Assembly (NCBI RefSeq): GCF_026914265.1
Contig: NC_069130.1
Location: forward strand, 13,240,886-13,304,885
Direction: 5' to 3'
Origin: Mya arenaria
Lineage: Eukaryota > Mollusca > Bivalvia > Myida > Myidae
Length of the DNA: 64,000 nt
This document shows positions 22,191-50,877 of this stretch, in pieces (within the stretch, counting starts at the first letter, position 1; the number at the start of each line of letters is the position of its first letter). Under the pieces are notes generated by a model. That model made no database searches and was not told the DNA's origin. It saw nothing but the letters and a program-made list of their open reading frames with translations. The position numbers were made by a program, and so were the translations under genes.

Positions 22191-22244
22191 AAAAATTAGG
22201 GATCCCATGATGCAATTTACCAGTGAAGGGCTTTTGGGCTTGTT

Positions 22245-24427: not shown

Positions 24428-24720
24428 CCCCTGAAGTGGCGGATTCATGGTCTAGTGGTAACAGTCTGGACTGTCAATCCAGGGGTGGCATGTTCGATTT
24501 CCTGCCGCAACACTCAAATAATAATCGTATTCTAGGAAGGACGTTAAATGGCGGTCCCATGTGGCAGTACACTAGTGCACGTTAAAAAAACAAGGTAGCT
24601 CCAACCAGGGTTGCATTCTGTTAGCAGTATGCTCCAAAAAACCCAAACAAGAATGAGTAAACAATCTGATCGGAGCACCTGGCCGAAAGGGCCATGACCG
24701 AGTGAGAGTATTAATTAACA
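24428..24720 (+). mobile_element. tRNA-derived SINE, unit A copy
   Basis: The tRNA-like head carries an A box (TGGTCTAGTGGTAAC) and a B box (GTTCGATTTCC). The body follows (GGAAGGACGTTAAATGG, then AGTGCACGTTAA and AAAGGGCCATGACCGAGTG). The same SINE sits at the matching place in units B (42428) and C (58668), so it predates all three. It resembles broad metazoan tRNA-SINE families with a conserved central domain, but I cannot assign the family. Confidence 0.65.
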
Positions 24721-25454: not shown

Positions 25455-25838
25455 GTCTAACAAGGTTATTTGGACGACCCAGGAGGCTTTTATTTTATTT
25501 TCATGTCTAACAAGGTTATTTGGACGACCCAGGAGGCTTTTATTTTGTTTTCATGTCTAACAAGGTTATTCGGACGACCCAGGGGGCTTTTATTTTGTTT
25601 TCATGTCTAACAAGGTTATTCGGACGACCCAGGAGGCTTTTATTTTATTTTCATGTCTAACAACATTATTTGGACGACCCAGGAGGCTTTTATTTTGTTT
25701 TCATGTCTAACAACGTTATTCGGACGACCCAGGAAGCTTTTATTTTATTTTCATGTCTAACAAGGTTATTCGGACGACCCAGGAGGCTTTTATTTTGTTT
25801 TCATGTCTAACAAGGTTATTCGGACGGCCCAGGAGTCT
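25455..25838. repeat. 50-bp minisatellite, about 8 copies
   Basis: Units start exactly every 50 bp at 25455, 25505, 25555, 25605, 25655, 25705, 25755 and 25805; the last is partial. Core: GTCTAACAAGGTTATTYGGA, then CGACCCAGGAGGC and a T-rich tail. Units differ at a few positions only. The unit B site has two copies and the unit C site one. It lies about 2.6 kb upstream of the first HSPA12 coding exon. Confidence 0.95.
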
Positions 25839-26922
25839 TAAATCAGGAAGTGTCTTGCATACTAATTTGACTTCGACATGTCCGGGCACGTGGTATGAAT
25901 GGATCAGGAGCATTTAAGCAGCATACCGTGCGCTTGTTAACACGCAATGGCTTGTAATAGCTCTTGTTTGGGATCGAGCGCCTTTTTATGATTTTGCAAG
26001 TAAACAAGCAAAAGTTAATTAAGCTGTGAAATGGGCGTGTTATAATCGTGTGAGTCATATTAATATGAAATTATATTTTTCTAAAGTTTTGATGGTTTCA
26101 CCTCAATAACCAAATGCACTTTAACCCTATCGACATGGCTAAAATCAGTCGATTTTGATGGGTCTCTGTACGTTTGAATGTTGTCGAGCCCAATAAAAAC
26201 AAATCAGATTGTTTGCAAGTTTATGAAGAACACTAAATGGTGTATAAAAGAATGATCGGTGCTTTTTAAACATGCACAAATAGCTTTACCATGGAGCTAT
26301 AGAAGAGACAAGTACGAAATTTTCACGACAATATACTTTAAGTGCTATTTTAATGTTGGTTCTATCTAGAGACCATGCATTTCGTAATAAATTATTTCAT
26401 TCACGATTGAGAAATCGAGGCTCGAAAAGGTGTCCGCTGTTACGAGGGTCCTTCAACAAGTTTTATCAAATGGTAAATACTAAAATTACAATATCAAATA
26501 GAATTCGCCTTGTTGTAGCTCACCTATTTATGTTCCATGTACCAGAAGTATAATTGTATTCCTTCTTACCATTGTCTAAAACTGTCAGAGTAGCTTGCCC
26601 TGTATCTACCATTTATTTATCAACATTACCAATGAGAGAATGCGCTTTAATAAAAAGTGCAACGTATTGTTCTGCAGATTAAGTTTATGCAATAAAACCC
26701 AACTCTTTAGACAATATTATGCACTTGATATAAACTATATCTAAACATGGCAGTCACGATAAAGTAAAAATGAAAGAAATAGCGGACTCCTTTTAGTAAA
26801 ATTATAAGCCATTTTAACGTGTTTAGTACTCTGTAAGACTTTAACATCCAGTATAGCTATTCAAATCTATCCTAGATAACTGGTCAGGTATATCGCTATG
26901 AAAGAATGATTTCCATTGATCC

Positions 26923-27041
26923 AACAGTCGTTACAGATATTACATTTGGACTGGGTTATATTGTGCTGAAGGGCGGAAGTAATTAATATACTTTGTATAA
27001 GAGCAGTTTGTACCAAAATGCCATAATATTTTTAAGTTGAG
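26923..27041 (+). promoter_or_regulatory. Candidate 5' UTR exon and promoter region of HSPA12 paralogue A
   Basis: A strong donor AG|GTAAGT lies at 27041/27042. The matching site is GTAGGT at 44681 in unit B and GTAAGT at 63049 in unit C. Joined to the acceptor ending at 28442, it would give a 1.4-kb 5' UTR intron. A TATA-like TGTATAAGAG lies near 26994 in unit A only. The exon start is unknown and I saw no convincing three-part heat-shock element nearby. The call rests on donor conservation in two or three copies. Confidence 0.35.
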
Positions 27042-28463
27042 GTAAGTGTTCTTATGAAGTTATGTTATTAAACCAACAATAACGTGTACGTTTTAGTAAA
27101 CATAGAATCACAAGCAATTTACTTTAATCTGGTTGGTAATATTGTTATTAACAAAACATTCTCAATCATTGAAATGACTTCAGTAACAGCATTAACATAT
27201 TTGATCTTTCAAAACTTCGATTTTTTTTATTGTAACTGTTAATTGAATACGGAGATGGTCATGCTAGTTTTGTTGTAGTAAATTAAAGAACAATGTACTA
27301 TTATTTCTGAACAGTCGTACAAATTAAGGCACATCTAGTTGTTGAGGTTTTTCTGAAAACCAAACTACTTCCTTGTTTAGAAAAATGAAAAATGAAGTGC
27401 GAATATTTGTTTATTGTTTAGTTAGTTGTGGTTATTAAACGTCCGAATAAGGATGAAACAGGTCTAAAGTTGAGAGATTGCGTTCGACTTACAAGACTTA
27501 GACGGTGTATACGTATGAAAGGGACTACTCTCTTTTTGCCGTTAAAATGCGTTGGAAAAAGGTTCAGCTTATGGGAACCAGTAAAGCTTGTCATTCATTG
27601 CTCTTATAAGGAGCTTGCAGGCTGGTAAGAAAATTGTAGATATTCTTGGCAGGGTCTGAAATTTATACGGAAATACCCGAGGATCATGTATATGTTTAGA
27701 TCGTCACTTTTCACAAATACAAATTTTGGCTTATGCGTTGAAAATAGTTCCATATTTGAACGGAAAATATGTTTCATTACTGTGCAATACAGAATGAAAC
27801 AACCCTTGTTTCATTTCAACTATTATTGCAACTGACAAGTTCACAACATATCGCTGATTTTTTTCCATATTTTAGGAGAATGAAGATGTAAGTCACTCCT
27901 GTAGATCTTGTTTGTGTATTAATTATTCAAAAGTGTGACATTAACAGCAAATCAATGGTAACTGAGCAACATATGGACAATGACAAAGTTTTTTCCTCTT
28001 AAACCTTTCGACTTTATACAGACACTTAAAGTAAAAAGAAACCAAATTTGAACAGAGTGATGTTTTCTCTGAATTGTATGCATAATGTAGCCATCTGACA
28101 ATTACAAACAGTAGCAGTTATCATGAATCGTTCAGATTTAAGTGCGTGTTTTTTTGCCATTTCGTTTATCGCGCCGTTTGTCCAAAAATAAATTTGTCGT
28201 ATAGTGCTGTTTGGACTGAGTATGAACACAAGATCACTATTTTATATTGTGAAACAAAACAGTTCTGTTAAAAATATATATGAATGGATCAGAAAAACAC
28301 AAATCTGACAAACTGAAGCATTTCAATTCCGTATTTTTGTTTGCAGTCGAATAACATCGTGACATTAATGCTATGAAATCCACAATCACTATAAAACATG
28401 TACAAGAAATTGCAAAATATATTATACTTTATATCTTGCCAGAAATCACTCAAACCAGTAAGA

Positions 28464-31400
28464 ATGTCGACCTTCCTGGTAGTTGCCAGCATAGACTTTG
28501 GAACAACCTACTCGGGATGGGCCTACTCATTTCGCTTTGAGTTCGAAAAGGATCCCACAATTGTACATGCTAAAACATGGCATGGAGGCAACTTCGTCTC
28601 ACAAAAAGGTATGTTTATTCTCTGCGTTGGGAGTTATAACTAATTGCCAATAAATCAAAAGCTTGATTACCGTGAATTTGCTACAATGGCGCCACCAGTT
28701 AAAAAGCACAATTTCTGCGGCGGTTGTGTCTTTTAAATGTATAATGATGGCCAAACTGACCTTGGTACAAGTAATCATAGTTACCTCACAAACCTTGTAA
28801 CTGTTCAATCTTTATACTGGGATTGTCCTGATTAATGAATTTGAACTACTACTTTTTATAAATAAATAGCACTCCAAACAAAACAATTGAAACAACCCGG
28901 GACAAGACAAGTAGCCTTTTATCAAGATCTTATTTAAAGGCATATGGTTTAAAGCCAAGTAAGCACCAAACAAGAGACAAAACGTTAAACACATCAAACA
29001 TTAAACAACTGTGACAATACTGCCTCAACCCGTGTACCTCTAATGACTGCAGCTTAACATGCGCATAGTTTTTCTAATTTGTAAACTTCCATTACGTTAA
29101 TTCCACGTCAATGGTAATTTCCAAGAGGAAGCAAATGTTTGCAGGGCGGATTCAGTTAGTTGGTGATTATTGCAATGGCAGTCGGAAAGTTAACATCAAG
29201 AAAATGAAGTAATAATACATATTAAAATGGGCATTTGGAATCGTGAGGGACGTTTGGTACAGATAAGACTGGCAATCCCGTTTTTGCGACGAATGTGTTT
29301 ATCATCGCATCACAAGAAGTTAGAGTTTCTAAAATTCCATAATGCTGATCAAATACTAATTGCTTTTAAATGCTCAGAAAAAAAACTGTTTGTTGGTTTA
29401 CAGTTTTATGTATACAAACCAGGACTCGTTGAGACTGGAAGTCCTTTTATAGCAGGCCTAATATAATAATAGACCTCAAATCGGTAGTAACGTAAATGAT
29501 GATGTTAAATAAGAAGTTTTGGTTAGAAATTTTGTTTAATATGATTGAAAGTCAGTTGAATATTTGATGGTACAGGGGTAAGGGAATTTTAAAGGACAAC
29601 GTACAAGGTTAAAGTTTGATACGTTATAACATATATATTGTTTATTTTCTTGATGAACAGTGATGCAAGAATTGTGATTATGTTGAGCTGAATCAACTTA
29701 TTTAAACTGCTGTTTTTTCTCCATGATTTTGTCTCCGTATCAATTATTTGCCTAATAATATGAACTTAATATGGACTAAAAAAGAAAGCAAGACGGTTTT
29801 GATGTAAATTTAAAATAAAGTCTGAACAGTTCTGGTTTCATCGTTTAATGCTCGCTATACTATTGAATAATTCCGTGGCTCAGTTTGTGAGTGCTCATCC
29901 TCACATTTCTCTACATTTATCTTAAAAATGCTCTGATCATACGGGCACAAAAAAGGCTTTACAACAGAACAATTAAACAATTATGCAATAACTTGTCTAT
30001 TCGTTTATAATGGGGTACATCCTTTGAACGGTGGTTATTTAGAATAAAACTAAACTGATTGATTTAAAAAAAATCTCTTTCAAAAGGACCAACCTGCATC
30101 CTCATCAAGCCAGATGGTAAAACTCTAGAAGCTTTTGGGTACGAAGCAGAGACCAAATACGCAGACCTAGCCGGTGAGAATGAACACAAAATGTGGTACT
30201 ACTTTCGGAGATTCAAAATGAAGCTCTTTAACAAAGAAGTAAGTCTTCAGGCTATTATCAATTTCTTTTTATTGGACTAAATTGGGACAACTGTACAAAC
30301 ATTCGACTTTTCAACACCTAGTGAACTCGCTTACAATTTTAACCGTTATTAAAACATCTATTAATAAACACTATTTTTATTTTGGCTCTTGTGTTGCCGT
30401 GTTTGTATCTTTTTGATGATCTGTTCTGTTTAGCTTTGGTTATGCCATTAAACAAGATGATAGTATGTTTTAGACATTTGGGATTGTCGTCGTAGCTTCT
30501 ATCAGTCCTTTCTGCAATGACCAATGCCTAAAAGTATTGCATTTTTCACATTTGTGCAATCTTAGCAGTTCTTTTTTTAAAAACAACAACAACCAAACAA
30601 CATCTGTATATGTGAATGCTAAAATACATATAAAGTTGTTTACTATATTCGATTAGTAAATGTATTTTCAAGCATATAATACATGTGTTTCTTACTTTCA
30701 GACACTGACTATGTCTTTAGAGATTGAAGATGAAGAAGGCAAACGTCTTAAAGCAATCACAGTATTTTCTCTTTCCATTCGCTATCTGAAGGAGGATTTA
30801 ATGAAAACTTCTTCCGACAAATTACGTGATGATATCACGGAAAAGGACATTCATTGGGTTATCACAGTTCCAGCAATTTGGAGTGAACCAGCCAAGAAAT
30901 TCATGCGCGAGGCAGCTAGACTGGTATTTGATGTTTTTCCTTTATTGTCTATATTTTGTCGTGTGTGTCTCCACTTGTCTGTTTATTTGACCTAAGGCCG
31001 TGTGCTTTTTGCTAATAAAAATACAGGAAGTGTCAAGCTACTGGGATGATCTGTGTAGTTTTCATTACACCATCTATTAAACAAATGAGATAATCGTAAA
31101 CTCTTATATTGCCATTCTTAATAGATTACGAAACACTTGTATCATCATTGTTAGAATCGTTTTTGAACATAGCTTATACTACGTTTCAGGTATCATTCTT
31201 GTGGTGAATGCGCTATAAAAGGTACCACGCGACATTTAAATAACAGTTCGTTTGTACATTTTGCCATTAATGTTATAATTCTTACTGATGTTTTCCTAGG
31301 CTGGCATACCGTTTGGTCAGTTGAGTGTTTGTCTGGAACCGGAGGCGGCTTCCATATATTGCCGGCATTTGCCAATGGAAAAAAGTTCCGATACTTCCGT

Positions 31401-33189
31401 GTCTTCATTTCAACCGGGAACAATATACTTGGTCTTGGATGCTGGCGGTATTTATCATAACGTTATTATTTTAGAAAACTAATAAACAAATAGTATGTAA
31501 GTCGAGTTTGGTTAATGTAACAAATTCAATCTTATTTTTTTTTGTTTATTGAAACCTACGTGTAGGTACGAGCAGATATTGACTGTTTGCAACAGGTGGT
31601 AGCTGTCCCAATATGCGTACATTGCAATAATGATGAAAATTATAAGTTCCGGAACAGCAAATTCTGCATAAGGTCAAACCATATGTATATGATGATTGAT
31701 TTACTACACAGTTTTTTTTCCAGAATATATATATACACAAAATAATATTTTTAAACCTTCTATTCCAAGTTTTCTTGAATCGGAAAACTTATTCGGTGTG
31801 GGGAAAAGGTAAATCTAACGAATCATGCATACATATTATAATATCGTCTTATGGATTGGTATACAGAATCTTTATGTAAAGGTTGGCACTTGCAGGTGGT
31901 ACTGTTGACATAACAGTTCACGAAATCACTCAAGAGGGAACACTAAAGGAACTTTCGATGGCATCAGGGGGCCCATGGGGTGGTACAAAGGTAGACGATG
32001 CGTTTCTAGCGCTATTCAATAAAATAACAGGTAAATGCACATTTAATTTAGATCACATCATTTTTTATATTATTTGTTATAAATAAAGAATAAAACTAAC
32101 GCTACAAACAATATAGTTGATACAAAATTTGATTGAAATTGCAGTTGTGTATAACAAATGTATTTATTTTATTTTTTGATTTCAAATCTGATTGCTCATA
32201 AATTTTCTAAATCATTAATGTCATATCAATGTTATTGCATAATGTCATTTTCTTCGTTCGTAGGTGTTGACATAATCGAGAGACTGAAACGCGAATACAT
32301 GGAAGATTACATAGAACTGGTTAGGAATTTTGAAATGAAGAAACGAGATATTACCGACAAACCTGGAACAACACTCATTCGCATTCCAGTCAGTGTGATG
32401 GATCTTGCTGAGGAGATGACCGGAAAAACTCTCAAGCAAATGCTGCAAGATTCGCCATACAAACAATCGATTCGCCAAGACAAGGATAAAATGAAAATTG
32501 ACACGAAAGTTTTAGTGTCACTTTTCGACACCACATTAGAAAGTATAGTAAGCCATGTGAGTACACTCTTTCAGGAGACGGCTCAGGATTGCAAGACAAT
32601 ACTGATGGTTGGTGGATTGTCTGACTCGGAATTGCTACAAGAAAAAGTGAAATCTGTGTTTAAAAATAAATCTCCTATAGTTCCTCTGGACGCAGGGTTG
32701 GCTGTTTTGAAAGGAGCAGTAATTTTCGGTCATAACAAGAGAGAAATTGTCTCAAGAATAGCACGATATTCATATGGACTGAAAACAGTAAGGGTTTTCG
32801 ACCCTGAGGAGCATCCTGTAGAAAGAATGTATATTGACAGCAAAAGACATGGTAAGCCCTCAGTTGGAGGATGTTTTTCAAAGTTAATTAAAAGGGGCGA
32901 CGCCGTTGAAGCACAAAATTCATCCGAACCAAAATCTTTTTATCCATTTAGTCACGGAACAGGTTTTGCCGCTAAACTATACTGTTCATCGCAAACGATT
33001 TGTCCACGATTTGTCGACGAAGAAGGGTGCAATTTTATCGGACAATTTAATGTGCCCTGTCTCGATATATTTGGAAACGTGGGACCCGCAAATGTGTCCC
33101 TCCTCTTTGGAGGCACGGAGATTGAAGCACGTGCAGTTTTACAAAGTACTCTTGAAAATGTCACAGCAACATTCGATTTTCCTGATTAA
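28464..33189 (+). CDS. HSPA12: HSPA12-like Hsp70-family protein, paralogue A (6 coding exons)
   Basis: Exons 28464-28608, 30087-30238, 30702-30923, 31300-31447, 31896-32030 and 32264-33189 join in frame with GT-AG borders to 575 residues (human HSPA12A is about 675). The Hsp70-type ATPase signatures are present: phosphate-1 DFGTTYSG (11-18), VITVPAIW (152-159), phosphate-2 DAGGGTVDIT (220-229) and the adenosine loop ILMVGGLSDS (380-389). The C-terminal part is the divergent HSPA12 form and ends FDFPD, without the EEVD tail of cytosolic Hsp70. No signal peptide or membrane segment is visible. HSPA12 proteins are atypical Hsp70 relatives; chaperone activity is less certain than for canonical members. 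An in-frame ATG at 28398 is probably intronic, because a good acceptor (CTTGCCAG, ending 28442) lies between it and 28464. By eye it is clearly close to paralogue B along its whole length. Confidence 0.95.
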
Positions 33190-33530
33190 ACATTTGGAGC
33201 TACAAAGCACCTACCACTCAAAATATTATACGAACAACTTGACTTTAAGAAAAAAATATTTATGCTATACAGATTAAGTAGGATGAGGATTGTATATAAA
33301 CTGTGACATGCTAGCCAGTGTGTCTGACCTATAAAGGTCAAGATAAATAAGCTAACACATTCACGCTTCCAAAACATTTCTCTTTCGGAATTTATATCTA
33401 CACTGTATTTACTTATATCAAATTGTTGTGAAACAACGAGAGTGTTAATTTTGATTGGATTCTGATGTTTTGCATTTGAGACAATCCTATATGCATTCAA
33501 TTGTTGTTTTCGTGTAACATTCTGCATTAT

Positions 33531-33532
<2 letters not shown>

Positions 33533-33628
<96 letters not shown>
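33533..33628. repeat. (TA)n microsatellite, about 48 units
   Basis: An unbroken TA run of about 95 bp, 340 bp after the HSPA12 A stop. The matching place in unit B (near 51390) has only a short TATATA. Confidence 0.95.
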
Positions 33629-33629
<1 letters not shown>

Positions 33630-33849
33630 TGTATCATTACGCGGAAAAAACATCGTGTATGTACGTGTTTTTTATTATATGCCTCTAACAATATATAAAC
33701 AGTGGCTGCCATTACGTTGGTTTAGATGTAATGCATGCAATATATTGCTTGCTTGTTTTCCCATGCACATAGGGGTACTATATTGATTTATCATTTACTT
33801 TCTGGTGGTTTAATAGTTGATGTGTTCCACTGTTTTGGAATTTGATCCT

Positions 33850-33998
33850 GGGCCAGTATTCAATATTGATCTTATTAATATCCTTAGATATGCCTCGGTG
33901 ATACCATTCAGCCTATTGGTCAGCTAAATAAACAGGCAATCAAGCACTTCGTTTCTTATCTTACAAGTACAATCTAAGTTGCTTATTGAATACGGCCC
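33850..33998. mobile_element. MITE with GGGCCRTATTCAATA ends, absent from unit B (family 6)
   Basis: 149 bp with inverted ends GGGCCAGTATTCAATA and TTATTGAATACGGCCC. Unit B reads straight through the corresponding site (near 51610) without the element, so it probably inserted after the A/B duplication or was converted away in B. Confidence 0.65.
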
Positions 33999-33999
33999 C

Positions 34000-35925
34000 A
34001 ACTCTCAGTTCTAAATTAAAAGTCAGCACATCGGTGATACACAGTTTGGCGCAGTATTCGGAAAGACTATATTTAACTTTCATGTTAAATTCTTTTAAGG
34101 CATATAACAAATATAAAAAAAAAAATATTTCAGTGTACGAGCGCAATACATTTCTTCCAGTGAACACCGCAAGTAATTATAGTTATTAATACCGAAACAA
34201 ACAATTATCCTCTAACGTATTTCACTTCAGAAATCAATTATTCTGATTTATGTTAATGAAAACATTTTGTTATAACACAATTACCCCCTATTTTAAGACG
34301 GCATTATTCTGCCCTTAACCTGTAACGTAAACAACAGAAATATAACAGTACCAGAGTAGCTCATGTACAGCAAGTGTTATCAATCCTTCTGAAATTATTC
34401 AGGGCAATTTCTGGCATGAGCTGTTGGCCGTTGATGTTCGCAAGTGCTTATAAGAAAAGTATTACTGCTATCAGAAATTCTACGACCACCTCAATAATGT
34501 AAGCAATCTTGAGAAATATCCATCTACGTTAATGTATCAATGCTGTTGTACGATTTGATATACTTATGGTATCAAAGCTTTTCTGATTTGATGGCTCAGA
34601 GCATTTGTATGTGTATCGCAGTTTTACTGTATCTCACATAGCTGGTTTCACTGCCATTTTAATATGGAAATGCTACTAACACTACGGAAGGTCAGTAGTC
34701 AATAAAGTACAATTTAGGATTTTGAAGAAGACAGAGTTCGACAGTCAAACGCTAAACAAGAACACACTGTTGCCTAGAGTTAACCACGATTTGGATATCT
34801 CCGAAAATAGTGTAGACGACATTAGGTAGTACTGAGCCTGACAATGCTGGCTTGTTCAATACAATAGCGATATAACAGTGTGACTTATGTACACGGCAAT
34901 CCTAATTACTTTTTTCTGGGCTTGACCTGTTCGCCGTGAATGTTATTTGCAAGTGTCAATAAGATTATTTTCAAGAAGGAATATAACGTAGGTGATATAT
35001 GTTCAGAACATATTATTGATTGAACATTTTGTAACTTGTACATAGTAGAAAAAAACGAACATAAATGTCTCAAGTATGCGGCGTAAAAAGTTGTAACTAC
35101 ACTTTATATCATCGGTTTTGGCATGTACTATTTTTTGACAAAAAAGGTTTCCCCATCGCGATGTATCTATCATATGCGAGAACAATTGTCAACCAGACAA
35201 ATGCATTGTGTGAAATAGTCAGTTCAGGGACTTGGTAAGGTAGGCGAGCACACTGCAATGTTCAAATGGTATATACTCCGGCAGCCTCGAGTCTAGAATG
35301 ATAAGCGTTAACGTCAACCCAGATTTTTAGACGTTCAATGCGGTCAGCATTTGTTCATTAATAAAGGTCACCTTGAAGTACGTTCATTACAAGGTCTACC
35401 ATGGCTATGAAAATGATGGACAATTTGCATGTATCGTATAAGAAAAAAAATCCAAGACTTAATAACAAATGAATTCAGTTCTTCGCTGAGCAGCTCTGAA
35501 ATTACAGACAAAGTATTTCAGTTTTGTAAAACTAATTTGTCCATGTAATTATATTTGCATTGCTTCACTAGTTTTAATAGAATGTTAAGCACAATGCCAA
35601 GCTCGTGATGCCTAAAATCATTGGTGTTAAAACAAATTAAATAATTACACATACACTACAATTAACGGAAATTCTTATATAAATATCATTTTTTTAACAG
35701 AGGCTGTTCTTCCTGGCATGTCTCCACACATATAATCCTTTTGGTTGCCGAACTGTTGTATTAACATAATACAATGTGGCTCTTAACGGATGAATAATTA
35801 AAGCGAACAAATCTAAAAACTGATCGGAAATACATTTTGCCATTTTACTGGCTCGGACAGTGTCCCCAAGAGAGGCAATGATGGAGGGTAATGGCTTGAA
35901 TGATTCTGAAATAATTGGTGACAAA
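34000..35925. other. Gene-free tail of unit A
   Basis: No gene is recognisable. About 34040-35485 has no counterpart in unit B (junction near 51650-51665), a 1.4-kb insertion or deletion difference. 35486-35760 again matches unit B (51660-51920). Confidence 0.5.
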
Positions 35926-36500: not shown

Positions 36501-37451
36501 AGAAGAAATCAATTTTTAATTGCAAAAACAACCTTCTTGTTTGAAATGAGTTTTTACTTTCAGATTCAATACATTGGATAGGTATGCTGATAAGCCACAC
36601 TTTCGTTGTGTACAGTTCAACACATCCATCATTAGCTTGGGCTTGTACAGTTCAACCCGCAGGTCCATAACATATTTTAAGAAGACAAAAATATATGCAT
36701 GTTTATGTGTTACATTCTTGTAATCTCAGTAGTGACTTAGGCTGATATCAAGAGACACATTCGGCGTACATCAACAGTTGTACCAATGCAAAGAATGTTT
36801 TTTCTTTCAATATTGTTAGTACCTCCTTGTGGTAACATAATCATGATAAAATGTTATATTTCATTGCAAACAGTATTTCATTGGGAACTTTAATCCCGTC
36901 ATGTAAACAACCATGGGGAAATTTTACAAATGGTTTCTATAAATATATTCTTGTCTTTGTTAATATTGATAGGGTTCTCTAAAATATCATGTTACTAGAT
37001 AGCCATCAGATTGTCAATGGGTATCTTTTTGTGCTTTAACAAATACTGATATTTTGCTTTATGTTGAAGTGATTTATAGTGTAACTCGTGACTAAAAAAA
37101 AATGTTTGTTTGCAAATTTCAAAAGCATATTAATCAGTGTATTATAATTAATATTATTGCTCAATAGTTATAGGAAAAAAGCAACAAAAAAAACCTAAAA
37201 GTATTTATCTGTACAGGTATATTTTATCAACATAATATATGAGGGAATGCGCTTTAAAAAAGAAAAAGACTTATTGTTCTGCTAATTAAGTCTCATTAAC
37301 TTGAAGAACAACAATAATATTTTGACAATCTGCATAATGTGTATGTATTTTTGAGTCATCCACAAATGCGTTACAGTATAAAGTGTTGTATATGAACTCA
37401 AAGTGTTTTTTGTATTTATTGTTTTGACAAAGTTCTGCTTTCTTTTTACAG

Positions 37452-37625
37452 GGTTTCGGTGAGGGCTGCAAGTCATCCACAACCGCGAAGGAAGTGAAGA
37501 ACCTAGAGGGCCTGTACATCCACACAGTCTCGTGCGGCCAATCCCACACCCTCACGTTGGCCCGGGTCGACACAGAGGAGGAGAAGGCCAGTCTCAACAA
37601 GTTGCCTCTGTATACACGCGGCTAA
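37452..37625 (+). CDS. Second, intact copy of the RCC2 terminal exon
   Basis: Encodes 57 residues plus stop in phase 0, matching exon 10 of RCC2 (19262-19435) at 166 of 174 bases. Five changed codons are synonymous and two are not (Met to Thr, Pro to Arg). It ends KLPLYTRG, slightly nearer the human KLPEYNPRTL. The acceptor has a better pyrimidine tract (CTGCTTTCTTTTTACAG) than the proximal one. No upstream RCC2 exons are duplicated, so it is either an alternative last exon reached over an 18.8-kb intron from 18693, or an inert passenger of the duplication. Splice competence is visible; use is not. Confidence 0.7.
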   Translation, partial: GFGEGCKSSTTAKEVKNLEGLYIHTVSCGQSHTLTLARVDTEEEKASLNKLPLYTRG

Positions 37626-38000
37626 CCCTAAAGTATTTATATTGCTGTAAATCGGGGGCTGCAGTGGGGTTTTCTGACAGGTGTCTTACGTGAAAAAGGC
37701 CTGATTCTTATTACTTACATGTGCTTTAGTTAACGGTTTATGTTATATGTGCAAGTCTTAAAGACTTTTAGATGACTTAATCAAAGATTTGATTGTGTTT
37801 TGACAGTTGATGACAGATATATTTAACATTTCATGTGGTTTTAAAGTTTATGATTAAAAACCAATAAGTTATAATTTGTACCATTGAAGTAATAAAAGAA
37901 ACATCTGTTCAATGATTTATAGTGTGTCTTGTTTGAAATTCTGTATTAGCAAGTACTAAATTGTATGTGTATGGACCATTGTGAGTTTCGTTTTGTATAA

Positions 38001-38174
38001 CAGTCAGTCCCTGTTGACTCGAACTCCCAGGGCCCGTCGAAAATTCCTTGAACCTTGGAAAATTTAAACCAATTAAGAATGCTTACATTCAGTAGAAAAA
38101 AAGATCATTTACATCCACTTGTAGCCAAGGAGGATATCAAGCCAAGCGGGTTCCAACCAACAGGGTTCAACTGT
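38001..38174. mobile_element. Mariner-like MITE (family 3), unit B copy
   Basis: Counterpart of 19818-19992. Ends CAGTCAGTCCCTGTTGACTC and CAACAGGGTTCAACTG. A diverged second one with a damaged left end lies at 38947-39107, matching 20935-21109. Confidence 0.55.
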
Positions 38175-39836
38175 TCCTCAAAGTAAGCAATTGAGGATGA
38201 AATCAAATATGATCTGACTGGTTGTTTTAATTTTTTTGAAATTTGTTGTGTGAATCTCTTTCTTTTAATAAGGAAATAGCATTATACCAATATTTTTTTC
38301 TCCCACCAAATGGTAAAAATGCCTCATTTGTCTTTAATTTCACTTGTTAATGGAGCCTTTAAATTTGTAAATAATTTCAATGTAGTTTGGTCATTGTGAG
38401 AATGTATGTATTGTTTTCGATAGTTTAGTTTAAATATTGGTGATTATGATTGTGTGAGAGATATAAGCACCTGTGTTGTGAATGATTTCGCAATATTTAC
38501 GCCTTCCTTACGATCAATATTAGGGCTTGGCACAAGACTGACTTAACTGTTTATGATTAGAAGGAATTACATGTGTCTTGCGTTGAGAGCCCTTGATTAT
38601 TATGGCAACTTGTAGGCAAATCAGATGTTTTTCTAAGTTGAACATCAGGAAGTGATAATTTTATTTTTCATTCAGGGCTGTCTTTCGACAAAATTTGGGG
38701 CTGCTATAAGACCCAATTCCACAAACAAAGGAATATAGTTGTTTTTACCAATATTTTGGTTAAAATTCCCCAGGCTCCCATTATCTCTAAAATGTATCAT
38801 TTGAAAAAAACAATTGCAGGTCAAATGTAAATAAAAAAACAATCATTTATTTTTGACACTATATTGTGTACTGTGTTTGGATACATGTATGTTACATCAA
38901 TTTACATTAAATGTTTTTTTTTGTTTTGTTTTTGTCATCTTTCAATCAGCTCGAACATCCAGGGACTGGCGGAAATACCTCGAGCCTTAGAAAATTTGAG
39001 CCAAACGGAATTGCTTACCTTCAGTATGAATAAATCTGTTTTCAACATCCAGTTCTAGCCAATGAGGAACTTGAGCCAGGCTAGTTCTAGCCCACAAGGT
39101 TCAACTTTATATTTCCTTTGTAATATTATGTGTTTTCCCTAAGATTTTCAAGCCGAAGGTTTTTCGACCCAATTTCGGTTGACATACTGGGGTCTCTGGT
39201 AATTTTATGCAGTCCTTGTAAATATTTGATTTCAAGCTAAAAGTTTTTAATAATCTAAATGCTAGGCCCTAGCTTTAATAGAAATTAAGTAGGGAACATT
39301 TACATATAATGTATTATTCACAGGAAGATATTGCAGGTGCTTCTATAATACTAGTATATGTCAATGTTCTTACTTCAGGAAATAATAAACATTTCCTGAT
39401 GCTTATTTTCATGTGTGTTCAGGGATACAATACAAACTAGCTTATTGTTGTTTTTTTCCTCATTTATCATATTTGTGATACATTCTGAACAAATTCAAAT
39501 TATCGAATGTTAATTTCTGTTTTTTTTTTCTTTAAATTTTGTATCTGTGTATTATTATTTAAAATTACAAGATCATTTATTTCCTGAAACTTTCATTAAA
39601 TGAGTTGTGTATAGCTTTTCTTTTGAATTCTAGATCATTCTCAATTTCTAAGGTCTTTTTTCACGTTTTGTCTTGTATTGATTTTTCCAGTATCGGAAGG
39701 TTTAAAATATGTGTTACCCTTAATTGATTATTAGCAAGCATTGTTAAATTGATATTGACAAGCCCAAATTCTTACACTAATGTTTGGCATCATATATTTT
39801 AAACAAGCCAAGCTTATGTAATATCCAGAATTTTAG

Positions 39837-40187
39837 CTGTGCTCCACATAGGCCTAAAAAGCAGGATGGGGCACCCTGCTGCCCTTTTCCAGCACCCTCC
39901 GGCCTTTTTACTACACCATGCTGTAATCTTTTGTTTGAGAGTCAGTTTTAAGAAATGAGTATAAAAATAAAAATATACACAATTTTTACTCTGAAGGCAG
40001 TAAAATAAATATAACAACTAAGGTATTTATAACAAACTATTTAGTATTGAAAGTAGTTACAACACATACACAATAAGAATTGAACATTAGCCTTTACAAG
40101 TGCCCTATTTAGGGTTATTCAATGTGCATCAAAAGTGCCCTTTCTGACCTAGCACTCTGCCATTTTCAAATCCTTGCTGGAGCACTG
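39837..40187. mobile_element. hAT-like MITE (family 2), unit B copy
   Basis: Counterpart of 21835-22190, with ends CTGTGCTCCACATAGG and TTGCTGGAGCACTG. Confidence 0.65.
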
Positions 40188-40241
40188 TAAAATTAGGGAG
40201 CCCATGATGCAATTTACCAGTGCAGGGCTGTTGGGCTTGTT

Positions 40242-40407
40242 CAGTAGTCGAAATTAGCACAAGCCCGCAAGCCCTTCACTGGTAAAATGCTTTCCGGACT
40301 TGCTCAAATTCTGGGTTTTAAATAGCAGGGCTTGTTCAAAAATGTAATGCCAAGCTGTAGTATATGAATTCAGGCTAGTTCATCCAAAAGACTAATTTCG
40401 ATGACTG
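40242..40407. mobile_element. MITE (family 4), unit B copy
   Basis: Counterpart of 22245-22410. It starts CAGTAGTCGAAATTAGC and ends CTAATTTCGATGACTG, with CTTGTT on both sides. The left end is closer to the likely consensus than in unit A. Confidence 0.7.
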
Positions 40408-40793
40408 CTTGTTCTAGATTCCACCATCGGTTTGATTCTAGATCTGATCGATTCGTGACAAATTGTAAATGTTAAGCCCTTGCAAAATTAAATCAATCAA
40501 TGGTAATCATCATCTTATTTAAAAGCTGTTTATGGCATAATTTTTCTTCAAAAATCATGTAAAATTATCACTCTGATCTCCGTTAACACCACACTCTACC
40601 TCTCACATTGCCCAATTTAAAATTTTTATTAAAACTTTTGCAATAATGATATTTAGATTTTATTTGAATTCTATACTATTTTTATCAAGTTTTGTTGAAT
40701 AAGTATTAGTTTAAACTTAATTGTTTCTTTAATGTTGATACTCGCTTCTGTTGTTTTTTTTTCGACAATATTTTTGAGAGGTTAAATTGAGGT

Positions 40794-41146
40794 TTTAAAG
40801 CTGCACTCTCACAAGTTGATGTTTTGACCTTTTTGAAAACATCTGTGCTTTAATTCAGTCATAAAAGATAGAACAGATCTCAATTGTTTGGTAAACTGCT
40901 GAAAATTGCATTTTTTGCCATAAAACATCAACTTTCAAACGTAAATATGGAAACTCTTAAAGCGTTAGTTATGCTTTTAGCGATAAAACATCAACTTTCA
41001 AACGTAAATATGGAAACTCCGATCTGCTCTTTTGTCAGCAGTTTTATATCTGTGGTTTTCATGCACTTTCTCAAAAATTGGCACGCTCCAAGATAAAATA
41101 TAAAAAAAGTTATCAAATCGTTCAATTTGTGAGAGTGCAGCTTTAA
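40794..41146. mobile_element. MITE (family 1), unit B copy
   Basis: Counterpart of 22797-23144, including the internal duplicated block. Both inverted ends are intact. Confidence 0.75.
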
Positions 41147-42427
41147 GTGACAATAAACAAAGAAACAGAAAGAACCTTTTTGCTGAGAATGCTCTGGTGC
41201 CACCAGTACTGGTTTCTACCCAGGAAACAGTCATACGTGTGATTCTCTAAGATTTTGTCACTATTGATTAAAAAGAAATAAGTCAATACTAAAGTAACCT
41301 TTTGGCTTTCAGGCATTGTATCGATTTATTGTTTATAAGTAACAAGTGTGATTCTTGGGTTATTTCCATGAACAATCGAGAGATAGAGATTTAACAAAAC
41401 ATATTGTGGTTTGTTTAAGTGTATGGGGATTGTTTTGTTGATTATAATTGGACAGTGATGTTGAAAGGGACTCGCTCACCTGTTTGATAAGCCCATGTAC
41501 ATCGAAAAAAATGTTCATTTTTATGTAAATTGTGAACAGAACGCTTGTTTCAATGATTTGACGTCATCAGTAATTCAAATAAGAGCTCTGTTATGAATAA
41601 TTATTTAAAAATATATTTTTCAGAAAAAGTAAGTACACAATTGAAAATAAAATTATTTTAAGCTTGGCATTGACAAAATTATGTTCAATTGAATATTTGT
41701 CAGTTACTGTTAGTGTTTGTTCATTGTTATAAGTAAATATCTTGATTTGGAAAAAAATGTTGCCAACAAAATCAGTGAGCTGGGTCCCTTTAAGAACATC
41801 GTTTTTACTGGTTTATAACAAATACTCAAACTTGGAATTTGCTGTTTTGTTAACATACGGAATGTATGAGTCGATTCACCATTTCGTTGGAGATTTTTTT
41901 CTTTAAATAATACATGTAAATTGATAAGAAAAAATGTATGTCTGAAGAAAACTGAAAATGACCTTCCTTACTAAAAGAATGCACTTTTAACATTGAAATA
42001 TATGGAGACATGATTTTTTAATAGTTGCATTTGTAATGACTCGAACATATTTTTATCCTTAAGTTTTTGTGAAAATAGTCTGCCAAAGTACTAGTCTTAC
42101 TTTTCAACTAGTACAGTGTGTAATATTTAAATACTTGTCCAAGGACATCATTTTGTTATAACACATAAGGCTTTATAAGTTTATATCATGCTTTACTTCA
42201 TCACATATATTCATTATCGATGTTTGACATTCAGTATGTAGAACTCACTGTTAAAATTCATCCATCACCATTCATTCACTTGGATTTCAGGAACACTATA
42301 TATTTACTATATGTTGTCTAAATGGTGTACATGTACCTTGACTGAAATTACACAAATAAATTACAAAGATTTAAAATGCTCCAGTTCTTATTTCTGATTG
42401 TGAATGAGTTGTTATCCTCCCTGAAGT

Positions 42428-42716
42428 GTTACGCCCCTGAAGTGGCAGATTCATGGTCTAGTGGTAACAGTCTGGACTGTCAATCCAGGGGTGGCAGGTT
42501 CGATTTCCTGCCGCAACACTAAAATGATAATCGTATTCTAGGAAGGACGTTAAATGGCTGTCCCATGTGGCAGTACACTAGTGCACGTTAAAAAAACAAG
42601 GTAGCTCCAACCAGGGTTGCATTCTGTTTGCAGTATGCTCCAAAAAAAAAAAACAAGAATGAGTAAACAATCTGATCGGAGCACCCGCCGAAAGGGCCTT
42701 GACCGAGTGAGAGTAT
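42428..42716 (+). mobile_element. tRNA-derived SINE, unit B copy
   Basis: Counterpart of 24428-24720. The B box GTTCGATTTCC and the AGGACGTTAAATGG body are kept. Confidence 0.65.
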
Positions 42717-43419
42717 TAATTAACAAAATGCCCCTGAAGGCTTATAATCGACAGTGATCGTGTGTCCGTCCGTACATATCGTGTCTCAGCTGTAACTTGC
42801 ATAAGTTTAATTATATTCGAATTTCAAACACCTCGCCGAACATGAACAGCAGCATGGGAAGGTGGGTCGCGGATAGCATCGTGATGCAAGGCTCAAAATG
42901 CAAGGTCACACTTAGTGGTCAGTTATTGCCATATTGAAAGAGTAAAAGTCGTTTTTACAATGTCCAGTAAAATTCAGAAATTCCATCAAAATTTATTATT
43001 TGGCATATTTGATAGTTTGTTCTGTTTTTAATAAAAACAGATATAACTACACATTATGCCTTAGAATTGAATTTGAAGGAAAATAACCACATATTGTATC
43101 AAAGCAACAGAGGCCAACGTTGATGTGCTGCATTTATGGGCTGTTTCTGAAGGTAGATATGGACGTCTTTTCTTTAATTCTAACCTTCGTGATGACTGTT
43201 TATGCGCCTTTAGAACTGTTGTTGGCTTCAGGACACATTCAAACGCGTTCTTATTTAACTGGAGAATACAAAAAACATTGCATTTATGAGGTCCATTTTT
43301 ATGTGTTTATCAAATACCCATACCATCTTTGCGTGCCTTTAGTATGACATAAGACTTGAATTCTGGAAATGCATATTACTTTCATTTAAAAACTACATCG
43401 GTATTACTTTTATTTTCCT

Positions 43420-43505
43420 GTCTAACAAGCTTATTTGGACGACCAAGGAGGCTTTTATTTTATTTTCATGTCTAACAAGGTTATTCGGACGACCCAGGAG
43501 GCTTA
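43420..43505. repeat. 50-bp minisatellite, 2 copies (unit B)
   Basis: Units start at 43420 and 43470 with the same core as at 25455. It is the short allele of the array expanded in unit A. Confidence 0.9.
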
Positions 43506-45780
43506 AATCAGGAAGTGTCTTGCATACTAATTTGACTTCGACATGTCCGGGCACGTGGTATGAATGGATCAGGAGCATTTAAGCAGCATACCGTGCACTT
43601 ATTTACACGCAATGGCTTGTAATAGCTCTTGTTTGGGATCGAGCGCCTTTTGATTTCGCAAGTAAACAAGCAAAAGTTAAATAAGCTGTGAAATGGGCGA
43701 GTTATACTCGTGTGAGTCATATTAATATCAAATTATAATTTCTAAGGTTTCGATGGTTTCGCCTCAATAACTTAATGCACCCTAACGACATGGCTAAAGT
43801 CAGTCGATTTTGATGGGTCTCTGTACGTTTGAATGTTGTCGAGCTCATTAAAAAAAAAATCAGATTGTTTGCAAGTTTATGAAGAACACTATATGGTCTA
43901 TAAAAGGATAATCGGTGCATTTTAAACATGCACAAATAGCTTTACCATGGATCTATAAAAGAGACAAGTACGAAATTTTCACGACGATATACTTTAAGTG
44001 CTATTTTAATGTCGGTTTTACCTAGAGACCATGCATTTCGTAATAAATTATTTCATTCAGTATTGAGACATCGAGGCTCGAAAAGGTGTCCCCTGGTACG
44101 AGGGTCCTTCAAAAAGATTTATCATATGGTAAATACTAAAATTACAATATCAAATAGAATTCGCCTTGTTGTAGCTCACCTATTTATGTTCCCTGTACCA
44201 GAAGTATAATTGTATTCCTTCTTAACATTGTCTAAAACCGTCAGAGTAGCTTGCCCTGTATCTACCCTTTTTTTATTAACATTACCAATGAGAGAATGCG
44301 CTTTAATAAAGAGTGCAACGTATAGTTCTGCAGATTAAATTTATGCAAAAAATAACTTTTTAGACAATACTATGCACTAGATATAAACTATATCTAAATA
44401 TGGCAGTCACGATAAAGTAAAGATGAAAGATTTTTTTTGTAAATTGAAAATAATAAGCCATTTAAACGTGTTAAGTCCGCTGTAAGACTACATCCAGTTT
44501 AGCTTATCTATGCTAGATAATTGGTCAGGCATATCGCTATGAAAGAATGATTTCCATTGATCAAACAGTCGTTTCAGATATAACATTAGGTCTGGTTTAT
44601 ATTCTGCTGAAGGGCGGAAGTAATATACTTCGGATAAGAGCAGTTTGTACAAAAATGCGATTAACATTTTTAATTTAGAGGTAGGTGTACTTATGAAGTA
44701 ATATTATTGACCAACAGTAACGTATAGGTTTTATTAAAAAGAATCACAAGCAATCTACTTAAATCTGGTTGGTAACATTGTTATTAACAAAAACATTTCA
44801 ATCATTGAAACGAATTCAGTAACAGCGTGAACATATATGATCTTTCAAGCGCTCGATTTTTTTTATTGTAACTGTTAATTGAATACAGAGATGGTCATGC
44901 TAGTTCTGTTGTAGTAAATTTAAGAACAATGTACTTTCGTTTCTGAACAGTCTTGCAAGTTTAGGCATATCTAGTTGTTGAGCTTTTTCTGAAAACCAAA
45001 CTACTTCCTTGTTTAGAAAAAGGAAAAAGGAAGTGCGAATTATTTGTTTATTGTTCAGTTAGTTGTAGTTATTAAACGTCCGAATAAGGATGAAACCGGC
45101 CTAAAGTTGAGAGATTGCGTTCGACTTACAAGACTTAGACGGTGTAAAGGGACTACTCTCTTTTTGCCGTTAAAATGCGATGGAAAAAGGTTCAGCTAAT
45201 GGGAACCAGAAAAGCTTGTCATTCATTGCTCTAATTAGGTGCGTGCTGGCTGGCAAGAAAATTGTAGATATTCTTGGCAGGGTCTGACCTCCGTAAATCA
45301 ATTGAAATTTATATGGAAATACCCGGGGATCATGTTTCTGTTTAGATCGTCACTTTTCAGAAATATAAATTTTGGCTTATGCGTTGAAAGTGGTTCTATT
45401 TGATCGGAAATATATTTCATTACTGTGTAATACAGAATGAAACAAACCTTGTTTCAACTATTTTGCAACTGACATGTTCACAACATATCGCTGATTTTTT
45501 ACTACATATTTCAGGAGAATGAAAATAATAGTTACTCCTGTATATCTTGTTTGTGTGCTTATTATTCGAAAGTGTGACATTAACAGCAAATCAATGGTAA
45601 CTGAGCAACATAAAGACAATGACAAAGTGCTGTCCTCTTAAACCTTTCGACTTAATACAGACACTTGAAGTAAAAAGAAATCAAATTTGAACATAGTGAT
45701 GTTTTCTCTGAATTGTCTGCATAATGTAGCCATCTGTCAATTAAAAACAGTAGCAGTTATCATGAATCGTTCAGATTTAA

Positions 45781-45828
<48 letters not shown>
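45781..45828. repeat. (GT)n microsatellite
   Basis: About 24 GT units with one GTTT interruption, 310 bp before HSPA12 B. Unit A has only GTGCGTG followed by T at this place (about 28142). Confidence 0.9.
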
Positions 45829-45832
<4 letters not shown>

Positions 45833-46140
45833 CATTTCGTTTATCGCACCGTTTGTCCAAAAATAAATATGTCGTATAGTACTGTTTCGTCCGAGTATGG
45901 ACACAATATCTCTATTTTTATATTGTAAACTAAACAGTTCTGTTAAGAATATATATTAATGGACCAGAAAAAAACACAAATCTGACAAATTTAAGCTTTT
46001 CAATTTCGGCTTTTTGTTTGTAGCCGAATAGCATCGTGACATTAAGGCTATACAATCCATTATCACTATAAAACATGTACAAGAAATTGCAAAATATATT
46101 ATACTTTATATCTTGCCAGAAATTACTCGAACTAGAGATA

Positions 46141-49100
46141 ATGTCGACCTTCCTGGTAGTTGCCAGCATAGACTTTGGAACCACCTACTCGGGATGGGCC
46201 TACTCATTTCGCCATGAGTTCGAAAAGGATCCAACAATAGTACATGCTAAAACATGGCACGGCGGCAATTTCGTCTCACAAAAAGGTATGTTCATTCTCT
46301 GCACTAGGAGTATAAACCTATTGCCAATTAACCAAAAGCTTGATAACCGTGAATTTGCTACAATGGCGCTACCAGTTAGCAAGCGCAGTTTCTGCTTCTG
46401 TTGTGTCTTTTAAATGTATACTGATGGCCATAATGGCCTTGGTTCAAGTAGACATAGTTACCAACCTGTAAACTCTTAATCTTTATACAGGGATTGTCCT
46501 GATAAATGAATTTGAACTACTACTATATTTATAGAAAATGAAAAATAGCACTCCTAATGAAACAATTGAATCACTCTGCGACAAGACAAGTAGCTTATGA
46601 TTTAAACAAGATTTTATTTAAAGGCACATAGTGAAAGGCCAAGCAAACACCAAACAAGAGACAAACCTTTAAAAACATCAAACATTAAACAACTGTGACA
46701 ATACTGCCTCCACCTGTGTACCTCTGATGACTGCAGCTTATCATGCGCATAGTTTTTCTTATTTGTAAACTTCCATTACGTTAATTCCACGTCAATGGTA
46801 ATTTCCAAGAGGAAGCAAATGTTTGCTGGGCGGATTCAGTTAGTTGGTGATTATTGCACTGGCAGTCGGAATGTTAAAATCAAGAAAATGAAGTAATAAT
46901 ACATATTTAAATGGGCATTTGGAATCGTGAGGGACCTTTGGTACAGATAAGACTGAAAATCCCGTTTTTGCGACGAATGTGTTTATCACCGCATCACAAG
47001 TAGCTCGAGTTCCTAAAATTCCATAATGCTGATCAAATACTTATTGCTTTAAATGCTCAGAAAAACTGTTTGTTGGTTTACAGTTTTATATATACAAATC
47101 AGGACTCGTTTAGACTGGAAGTCCTTCTATAGCAGGCCTAATATAATAATAGACCTCAAATCGGTAATAACGTAAATGATGATGTTAAATAAGAAGTTTT
47201 GGTTAGGAATTTTGTTTAATATCATTGAAAGTCAGTTGAATATTTGATGGTACAGGGTTAAGGAAATTTTAAAGGACAACGTACAAGGTTAAATTTTGAT
47301 ATGTTATAATATATATATATATAGTTTATTTGGTTGATGAACAGTGATGCAAGAATTGTGATTATGTTAAGCTGAATCAACTTATTTAAACTGTTGTTTT
47401 TTTTCTCACCATAATTTTGTCTCCGTATCAATTATTTGCCTAATAATATGGACTAAATATGGACTAAATTCGAAAGCAAGACGGGTTTGATAAAACTAAA
47501 GTCTGGACGGTTTTGGTTTCATCGTTTAATGTCCGCTATATTATTGAATAATTCCGTGGCTCAGTTTGTGAGTGCTCATTCTCACATTTCCTTACATTTA
47601 TCTCAAAAAATGATTTGATCATACCGACACAAAACAAGGCTTTTAAAACGATGCAACAGAACAATTCTTGTCTATTCGTTTATAATGGGGTACATCCTTT
47701 AAACGATGGTTTTTTTAGAATAAAACTAAACTGAATAATTAACAAAATCTCCGTCTAAAGGACCAACCTGCATCCTCATCAAGCCAGATGGTAAAACTCT
47801 AGAAGCTTTTGGGTACGAAGCAGAGACGAAATACGCAGACCTAGCCGGTGAGAATAAACACAAAAAGTGGTATTACTTTCGGAGGTTCAAAATGAAGCTC
47901 TTTGACAAAGAAGTAAGTTTTCAGGCTATTATCAGTATATTTTTTATTGGACTACATTGGGACAACTGTACAAACATTCGACTTTCCAACACTTAGTAAA
48001 CTCGCTTACAATTTTAATGGTTGTTAAAACATTTATTTATATTTTGGCTCTTGTGTTGCCGTGTTTGTATCTTATGATGATCTGTTTTGTTTTGCTTTGG
48101 TTATGCCATTAAACAAGATGATAGTATGTTTTGGACATTTGGGATTGTCGTTGTAGCTTCAATCAGTCCTTTCTGCAATGACCAATGCCTAAAATGCCTA
48201 TTGCATATTTCACATTTGAGAAATCTTTGCGAAAAACATAATAAATAAGACATCTGTAGATGTGAATGTTAGAATACATATAATGTTGTTTACTATTATC
48301 GAGTAGTAAATGTATTTTCAAGCATAAATTTATGTGTTTCTTACTATCAGACACTGACTATGTCCTTGGAGATTGAAGATGAAGACGGTAAACGTCTTAA
48401 AGCAAGTACGGTCTTTTCTCTGTCCATCCGCTATCTGAAGGAGGATTTAATGAAAACTTCTTCCGACAAATTACGTGATGATATCACGGAGAAGGACATT
48501 CATTGGGTTATCACAGTTCCAGCAATTTGGAGTGAACCAGCCAAAAAATTCATGCGCAAGGCAGCTAGAGAGGTATTTGATGATTTTCTGTATTGTCCAT
48601 ATGTTGTCATGTGTGTTTCCACTTGTCTGTTTATTTGACCTAAGGCCGTGGGCTTTTTGCTAATAAAAATACAGGAAGAGTCTAAGTACTAGGATGGTCT
48701 GTGTCGTTTTAATGCCATCATTGATAAAACGAATGAGATAATCGTATACCCTAATATTGCCATTCTAAATAGATTACGAAACACTTGTATCATCATTGTT
48801 AGAATCGTTTTAAAACTTAGCTTATAATATGTTTCAGGTATCATTCATGTGGTGAATGCGCTATAAAAGGTACCAAGCGACATTAGAATAACAGTTCCTT
48901 TGTATATTTTGCCATTTATGTTATAATTCTTACTGATGTTAATCTAGGCTGGCATACCATTTGGTCAGTTGAGTGTTTGTCTGGAACCGGAGGCGGCTTC
49001 CATATATTGCCGTCATTTGCCATTGGAAAAAAGTTCCGACACTTCCGTGTCTTCTTTTAAACCGGGAACAACATACTTGGTCTTGGATGCTGGCGGTATT

Positions 49101-49352
49101 TATCATTTTTTTATATTTTTTTTAGAAAACTAATAAACAAATAGTATGTAAGTCGAGTAAGGTTAATATAAAAAAATCAATCTTAGATTTTGTTTTGTTT
49201 TATTTAAACCTTCGTGTTTGTACAATTACATTTTGGCTGTGCGTACATTGCAATAAATATAAAAATGATAAATTCTGGAACAGTAAATACTGCATAAGGT
49301 CATACCATATGTATATTACTGATGTTGGATTTACCACACAGTTTATCTTCCA

Positions 49353-49413
<61 letters not shown>

Positions 49414-50877
49414 AAATAATATTTGTTATACCTTCAGTTCCTCGTTGTCTTGGAAAACCTTTTTCCGTTTGATCGAAAAAAAGTCTTTGTGGGGTAAAGG
49501 TACATCTAAGGAATTATGCATATATAATATAATATCGTCTTATGGGGTGGTATAAAACAGAAGCGTTGTGTAAAAAGTTGGTACTTGCAGGTGGTACTGT
49601 GGACATAACAGTTCACGAAATCACTCAAGAAGGCAAACTGAAGGAACTTTCACAGGCGTCTGGGGGTCCATGGGGTGGTACAAATGTAGACGATGCGTTT
49701 CTAGCGCTATTCCATTTAATAACAGGTACATTTAGATCACATCATTGTATTTTATTTGTAATAATAGTGTCATACTTACGGTATAACGCTCCAAACATAT
49801 AGTTGATACAAAGTTTGAATGAAATTGTAGTTGTGAATATACCAAATGTATTTTTTTTCTTTAATTTCAAATCTGACTGCTCATAGATTTCCAAAATCAT
49901 TAATAGATTTGTAATACTAATGTTATTGCACAATGACATTTACTTTGTTCGAAGGTGTTGACATAATCGAAAGACTGAAACGGGAAAACATGGAAGATTA
50001 CCTAGAACTGGTAAGAAATTTTGAAGTGAAGAAACGAGATATTACTGACAAAGCTGGAACAACACTCATTCGCATTCCAGTCAGTATGATGGATCTTGCT
50101 GAGGAGATGACCGGAAAAACTCTCAAGCAAATACTGCAAGATTCGCCGGAAAAACAACTTATTCGCCAAGACAGGGATAAACTTAAACTCCACACGGGTG
50201 TTTTACTGGCACTTTTTGACATCACAGTAGAAAAGATAGTTAGCCATGTGAGTACACTTTTTCAGAATACGGCCCAGGATTGCAAGACAATACTGATGGT
50301 TGGTGGATTTTCGGACTCGAAATTGCTACAAGAAAAAGTGAGATCTGCGTTTAACAATGTATCAATTATAGTGCCTCCGGACGCAGGGTTGGCTGTTTTG
50401 AAAGGAGCGGTGATATTTGGTCACAACAAGAGAGAAATTGTCTCAAGAATAGCACGATATTCATATGGACTGGAAACGGTCACGGATTTCGACCCTGAGA
50501 AGCATCCTGTAGAAAGAATGTATATTGACAGCAACAGGCATGATAAACCATCAGTTAAAAAATGTTTTTTCAAGTTAATCAAAAAGGGAGATACAGTTGA
50601 GGCAGAAAAAGAATCCGAACCAAAACCTTTCCGTCCATCAGGGCACGGAACAGGTTTTGCCGCTAACCTCTACTGCTCATCGCAAACAAATCCATTATTT
50701 GTTGACGAAGACGGGTGCAATTTTATCGGACACTTTAATGTGAGCTGTCTCGATAAGATTGGAAACGTGGGATACGCAGATGTGTCCCTTCTCGTTGGAG
50801 GCACGGAGATTGAAGCACGGGCAGTTTTACAAAGTACTCTTGAAGAAGTCACAGCAACATTCGATCTTCCTGATTAA
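46141..50877 (+). CDS. HSPA12: HSPA12-like Hsp70-family protein, paralogue B (6 coding exons)
   Basis: Exons 46141-46285, 47761-47912, 48351-48572, 48948-49095, 49591-49725 and 49955-50877 join in frame to 574 residues, with intron positions and phases identical to paralogue A. DFGTTYSG, VITVPAIW, DAGGGTVDIT and ILMVGGFSDS are all kept, so ATP binding is expected. It is one codon shorter than A near the C-terminus (SSQTNPLF against SSQTICPRF). Several acidic/basic swaps occur in the last exon, for example in the region after PVERMYIDS. Ends FDLPD. All reading frames are open, so this is a second functional-looking gene. As in A, the in-frame ATG at 46075 probably lies in an intron, since an acceptor ends at 46119. 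Confidence 0.95.
49355..49411. repeat. (TA)n microsatellite in HSPA12 B intron 4
   Basis: About 28 TA units. Paralogue A has only a short TATATATATACAC at the same place (about 31724). Confidence 0.95.

Follow-up and report, generated by a model that had tools for sequence, protein, structure and literature searches.

A second copy of the RCC2 terminal exon beside an HSPA12-like gene array in Mya arenaria, probably carried along by tandem segmental duplication

Here we describe a 64,000-nucleotide stretch of the genome of the clam Mya arenaria (RefSeq assembly GCF_026914265.1, contig NC_069130.1, positions 13,240,886 to 13,304,885 of the forward strand; hereafter the window), in which the 3′ end of an RCC2 gene lies beside HSPA12-like genes and the last RCC2 exon occurs twice (Table 1). 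The assignment to RCC2 rather than to UVR8, HERC or RCC1 is borne out by the solved-structure match of the exon 9-10 peptide: the best match was 5gwn_A, “Protein RCC2” (E 3.2e-29), the only RCC2 chain returned among solved structures and one that we take to be human RCC2, followed by UVR8 (E 1.1e-17). Exon 9 ends at a donor at 18693/18694, from which an intron would measure 568 nt to the first copy of exon 10 (copy A) and 18,758 nt to the second (copy B). One HSPA12-like (HSP70-type) gene with matching open exon blocks is found in each of two duplication units, A and B. The joined exon pieces of gene B matched the Pfam HSP70 profile PF00012 at 27.6 bits (cut-off 20.6) and DnaK chains weakly; the subfamily name HSPA12 is that of the original prediction, the profile match supporting HSP70 only. 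For the HSPA12-like 3′ exon, the only Pfam match was a sub-threshold one to BcrAD_BadFG, and NCBIfam returned nothing.

Table 1. Features of the window, in window coordinates; poly(A)-type signals are motif matches only.
Feature	Positions	Strand	Basis and remarks
RCC2 exon 9	18621..18693	+	Sequence; translation matches 5gwn_A; donor GTGAGA from 18694
Duplication unit A	19231..35726	+	Aligned in blocks to 33848, then fragment 35489-35726
Intron 9 tail and acceptor, copy A	19231..19261	+	A/B homology begins here; 7 of 31 bases mismatched
RCC2 exon 10, copy A	19262..19435	+	Sequence comparison; match to solved RCC2 chain; ends LPLYTPG stop
3′ flank/UTR, copy A	19436..20715	+	ATTAAA at 19632, 19664, 20600, 20677; AATAAA at 19889
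HSPA12-like gene A	28464..33189	+	Several exons; six conserved blocks, open as far as seen; exon limits approximate
Duplication unit B	37421..51894	+	Aligned in blocks to 51613, then fragment 51662-51894
Acceptor tail ahead of exon 10 copy B, start of unit B	37421..37451	+	Sequence comparison
RCC2 exon 10, copy B	37452..37625	+	Sequence comparison, genome search; ends LPLYTRG stop
3′ flank, copy B	37626..38945	+	ATTAAA at 37853, 38906; AATAAA at 37891, 38830
HSPA12-like gene B	46141..50877	+	Joined exon pieces match Pfam HSP70; exon limits approximate
Unit C, 5′-truncated, without RCC2 exon 10	56799..64000	+	Runs past the window, carrying HSPA12-like gene C

Self-alignment of the window revealed a segmental duplication of about 15 kb in tandem, whose two units are colinear and share one orientation; it is made up of three blocks (19231-20715 matching 37421-38945, 20951-25302 matching 38949-43301 and 25740-33848 matching 43408-51613) and a further fragment at the right. 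The third unit, C, starts at the point equivalent to 22426 of unit A and 40423 of unit B. Homology between A and B begins 31 bp before exon 10 and has a less sharp right end; since the first aligned base lies so close to the exon, the left breakpoint is placed in RCC2 intron 9, with exon 10 the only RCC2 exon caught. The original prediction of a duplicated last exon thus stands as to the duplication, but the exon was not copied alone: it came with its neighbour as part of the segment. Two smaller differences between the units were also seen. A 50-bp tandem repeat is present in eight copies in unit A (25441-25839) and in about two in unit B (43408-43504), and about 2.1 kb of unit C (60501-62624), probably an insertion, separates blocks that are nearly adjacent in A and B.

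The two exon copies are 174 bp each, 95% identical and 18,190 bp apart in the same orientation. Both are open in the same phase, continuing the frame of exon 9, which bears out the prediction of a complete, in-phase second exon 10. They differ by eight substitutions (exon positions 6, 9, 81, 104, 117, 165, 167 and 168) in seven codons, with no indel; five of the seven changed codons are synonymous and the two replacements are M to T and P to R. Translation confirmed that copy B would end the protein in YTRG where copy A ends it in YTPG. At the P/R codon the 5gwn_A chain has P, as in copy A, so copy B is probably the changed copy at that site, whereas the M/T codon is uninformative on which copy changed because the chain has V there. 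A whole-genome search with the DNA of exon B (1,216,080,610 bases in 18 contigs) found two places, with E values of 3e-84 and 2e-73 that rule out a chance match between the copies. When the peptide of exons 8-10 was used as the query, all four genomic matches fell at this locus, one each for exons 8 and 9 and two for exon 10; of the exons covered, exon 10 alone is matched more than once in the genome. A tblastn search with the exon peptide of the window and the next 40 kb recovered copies A and B and no third exon 10.

The HSPA12-like 3′ exon gave at least 132 match rows in the genome, on the contig carrying RCC2 (C9) and on other contigs, several with internal stops; this is a lower bound, 129 of 536 candidates having been scored. 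Among the 132 matches listed, 32 (counted by hand) fall within 13.27-14.86 Mb of C9, and among those listed on C9 none lies to the left of RCC2, which makes RCC2 look like the flank of an array. Most likely, RCC2 flanks a large HSPA12-like array whose edge unit took exon 10 along.

A tandem arrangement of this kind might also arise if two haplotypes had been placed in series, and the original prediction had named a haplotype artefact as a possible source of the second copy. Bivalves are highly heterozygous according to the probable source paper, which used haplotig purging (PMC10663159). The same study describes RNA sequencing of six tissues and gives BioProject PRJNA874712 for its raw data. 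Against such an origin, neither the window nor the 40 kb beyond it contains an N, a third diverged unit stands in series, relations among A, B and C are mosaic, and A and B are about 10% divergent in blocks 1 and 3, where indels are numerous, though block 2 differs at only 3.9% of sites. Because the relations among A, B and C shift along the array, they point to an older array with exchange between members rather than to haplotypes laid side by side, and we regard an assembly artefact as extremely unlikely.

We suggest instead that copy B is probably a passenger terminal exon, brought along by a tandem duplication at the margin of the HSPA12-like array. A duplication that began on its left within RCC2 intron 9, shortly before exon 10, would have copied this exon together with its 3′ flank and the HSPA12-like gene beside it. 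RCC2 would have gone on using the near exon 10, copy A, whose stop and poly(A)-type motifs are its own, and copy B, with no RCC2 exons of its own ahead of it, would be left as an orphan terminal exon, joined at most by rare read-through splicing. Colinear, same-orientation homology extends far beyond the exon, and exons 8 and 9 are each matched once in the genome. The order of events, the use of exon A and a mostly silent copy B are what we infer from this arrangement. Several observations sit less easily with a passenger: dN of 0.016 and dS of 0.16 between the copies look like constraint, the exon carries no indel, the copy B acceptor has not decayed, and an AATAAA follows the copy B stop. 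A retrocopy was rejected, since genomic flank was copied along with the exon and the exon 8-10 query gave only its four matches, all here. Recent gene conversion as the sole cause of the similarity between the exons is also unlikely, the high exon dS of 0.16 arguing against recent homogenisation.

The features that copy B would need for splicing and 3′ end formation (acceptor, frame, stop and poly(A)-type motifs) appear to be present, none being visibly broken. Pyrimidines make up 0.82 of positions -20 to -4 at the copy B acceptor and 0.65 at that of copy A, in keeping with the strong acceptor that had been predicted, and an AATAAA, as a motif match only, lies 265 bases after the copy B stop. 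Copy B may on this account work as an alternative terminal exon of RCC2: some transcripts would pass over exon 10A, extend across HSPA12-like gene A and be spliced from 18693 to 37452, giving a product with two changed residues near its C terminus and a message with another 3′ UTR. The open in-phase exon with its stop and motifs, the better polypyrimidine tract and a dN/dS of about 0.1 between the copies are all consistent with such use. The geometry of the original proposal, with HSPA12-like gene A inside an RCC2 intron, is sound, the gene lying between the two copies on the same strand and the copies sharing phase; the use of that intron is putative. Exon A, however, lies only 568 nt from the donor, and as it comes with a stop and poly(A)-type motifs, use of copy B would need both exon A skipping and about 18 kb of read-through. 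We consider a working alternative terminal exon unlikely. The intact acceptor could also serve other transcripts, copy B lying between the two HSPA12-like genes on their strand: it might be spliced into a chimeric or read-through transcript of gene A, or into the untranslated leader sequence of gene B. In Drosophila yakuba, tandem duplications are reported to have produced chimeric structures (PMC5460883). The coding start of gene B, on the other hand, lies about 8.5 kb downstream of copy B, and splicing of copy B into either of these transcripts seems very unlikely.

Whether copy B has been kept as coding sequence bears on the choice between a passenger and an alternative terminal exon, and depends on how the exon compares with the rest of the duplication. 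Seven of the 31 bp before the exon and 13 of the 45 bp after the stop differ between A and B, so exon 10 stands out locally. Across the noncoding 3′ flank, 125 of 1262 aligned sites differ, with 18 gap events; block 2 differs at 170 of 4321 sites and block 3 at 823 of 7907. Noncoding positions 19481-19625 (about 145 bp), with only four differing sites and one gap by hand count from the mismatch map, are as quiet as exon 10, which tells against reading the exon as specially preserved for use as an alternative end of RCC2. No more than eight differences are seen in 11.9% of the 174-bp segments that block 1 contains beyond the exon, in 85% of those from block 2 and in 8.5% of those from block 3, the last figure including HSPA12-like exons, and the identity of exon 10 (8 of 174 sites differing) is unexceptional for the duplication unit. 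Of noncoding segments of 174 columns, 15% have no gap, as against 0 of 233 in the adjacent flank. The closest pair among the three units changes along the array: in block I (22426-23510) A groups with B, by 99 sites against 5 and 9, and in block IV (26612-29028) B with C is slightly ahead, by 138 against 96 and 99. The extra likeness of 20951-25302 and 38949-43301, together with this shifting closest pair, suggests gene conversion, and the change from A/B in block I to B/C in block IV makes conversion or a mosaic history likely elsewhere in the array.

By the NG86 method, exon 10 of A and B gave dN 0.016 and dS 0.161, and the HSPA12-like 3′ exon dN 0.116 and dS 0.228. The null that we used held copy A constrained and copy B free, rather than both free; the synonymous excess is then weaker than it appears, because the copy A lineage should gather mainly synonymous changes anyway. 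In simulations with copy B free, an open frame with at most two nonsynonymous codons arose in 2.6% of runs (about 0.03) at d = 0.106, which is how far the 3′ flank has diverged by the JC measure, in 1.3% at d = 0.12, in 8.6% at d = 0.08 and in 33% at d = 0.05. The exact outcome (five synonymous and two nonsynonymous changes, open frame) had a probability at d = 0.106 of 0.019 (omega 0.05) or 0.040 (omega 0.2) with copy B constrained, against 0.004 with B free, making it about 5 to 10 times likelier under constraint; at d = 0.05 the corresponding values were 0.0017 and 0.0083 against 0.0062, and the advantage was gone. With real noncoding segments supplying the mutation pattern and indels ignored, the null probability was 0.09-0.13, or 0.19-0.24 on the assumption that 30% of the differences had existed as alleles when the duplication occurred. 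Requiring gap-free segments lowered it to 0-5.5%, a filter that also counts gaps arisen on the A side.

The original prediction had taken five synonymous codons out of seven as a hint that coding had been kept. The count holds, and the inference is weak: given seven changed codons, two or fewer were nonsynonymous in 6-8% of free-B runs, and in 5-19% of real-segment draws with at least five synonymous changes. Across all settings the null probability spans about 0.01-0.33, on an exon chosen for looking conserved. For an alternative terminal exon, then, the values near 0.03 (simulation at flank divergence) and 0.09-0.13 (real noncoding segments) speak in favour, but the null is not firmly rejected at 0.19-0.24 with allelic differences or 0.33 at the lowest divergence. 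The substitution pattern leans towards coding constraint on copy B without establishing it, and a true neutral divergence as high as the HSPA12-like dS of 0.23 would make the free-B null less likely. We judge it improbable that the duplication gave RCC2 a functional second terminal exon, so that its last intron now encloses an HSPA12-like gene and protein-level selection has preserved copy B.

Alternative last exons are a form of alternative polyadenylation linked to splicing. The clam locus resembles them in having two in-phase terminal exons, each with a stop and poly(A)-type motifs, but differs in that a whole gene lies between the copies and the second exon is a candidate only. The locus is also like partial (incomplete) gene duplication through a tandem segmental event, in which an intragenic breakpoint copies the 3′ end of a gene and its neighbour in the same orientation; in this clam the segment caught one complete terminal exon with its acceptor, which would be splice-competent in principle. 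In Drosophila yakuba, tandem duplications shuffle exons and regulatory parts, with expression measured by RNA-seq (PMC5460883); the clam case is alike in that tandem duplication moved an exon, but is known from genome sequence. A literature search on RCC2 with an alternative last exon found no paper, and among the titles listed on HSPA12 in bivalves or clams and on partial duplication none names this locus.

The locus illustrates that a growing HSPA12-like array in a clam can spill into a single-copy neighbour and leave behind a splice-ready orphan exon. Were copy B used, the locus would exemplify nested genes and alternative last exons arising in one step. If it is unused, the 95% identity of the exon copies is a warning on a practical level for gene annotation and RNA-seq mapping. 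The RCC2 3′ flank also contains an interspersed repeat of about 180 bp (19818-19997), which both units carry and which has matches of about 75-83% identity on many contigs; it is SINE-like by size only.
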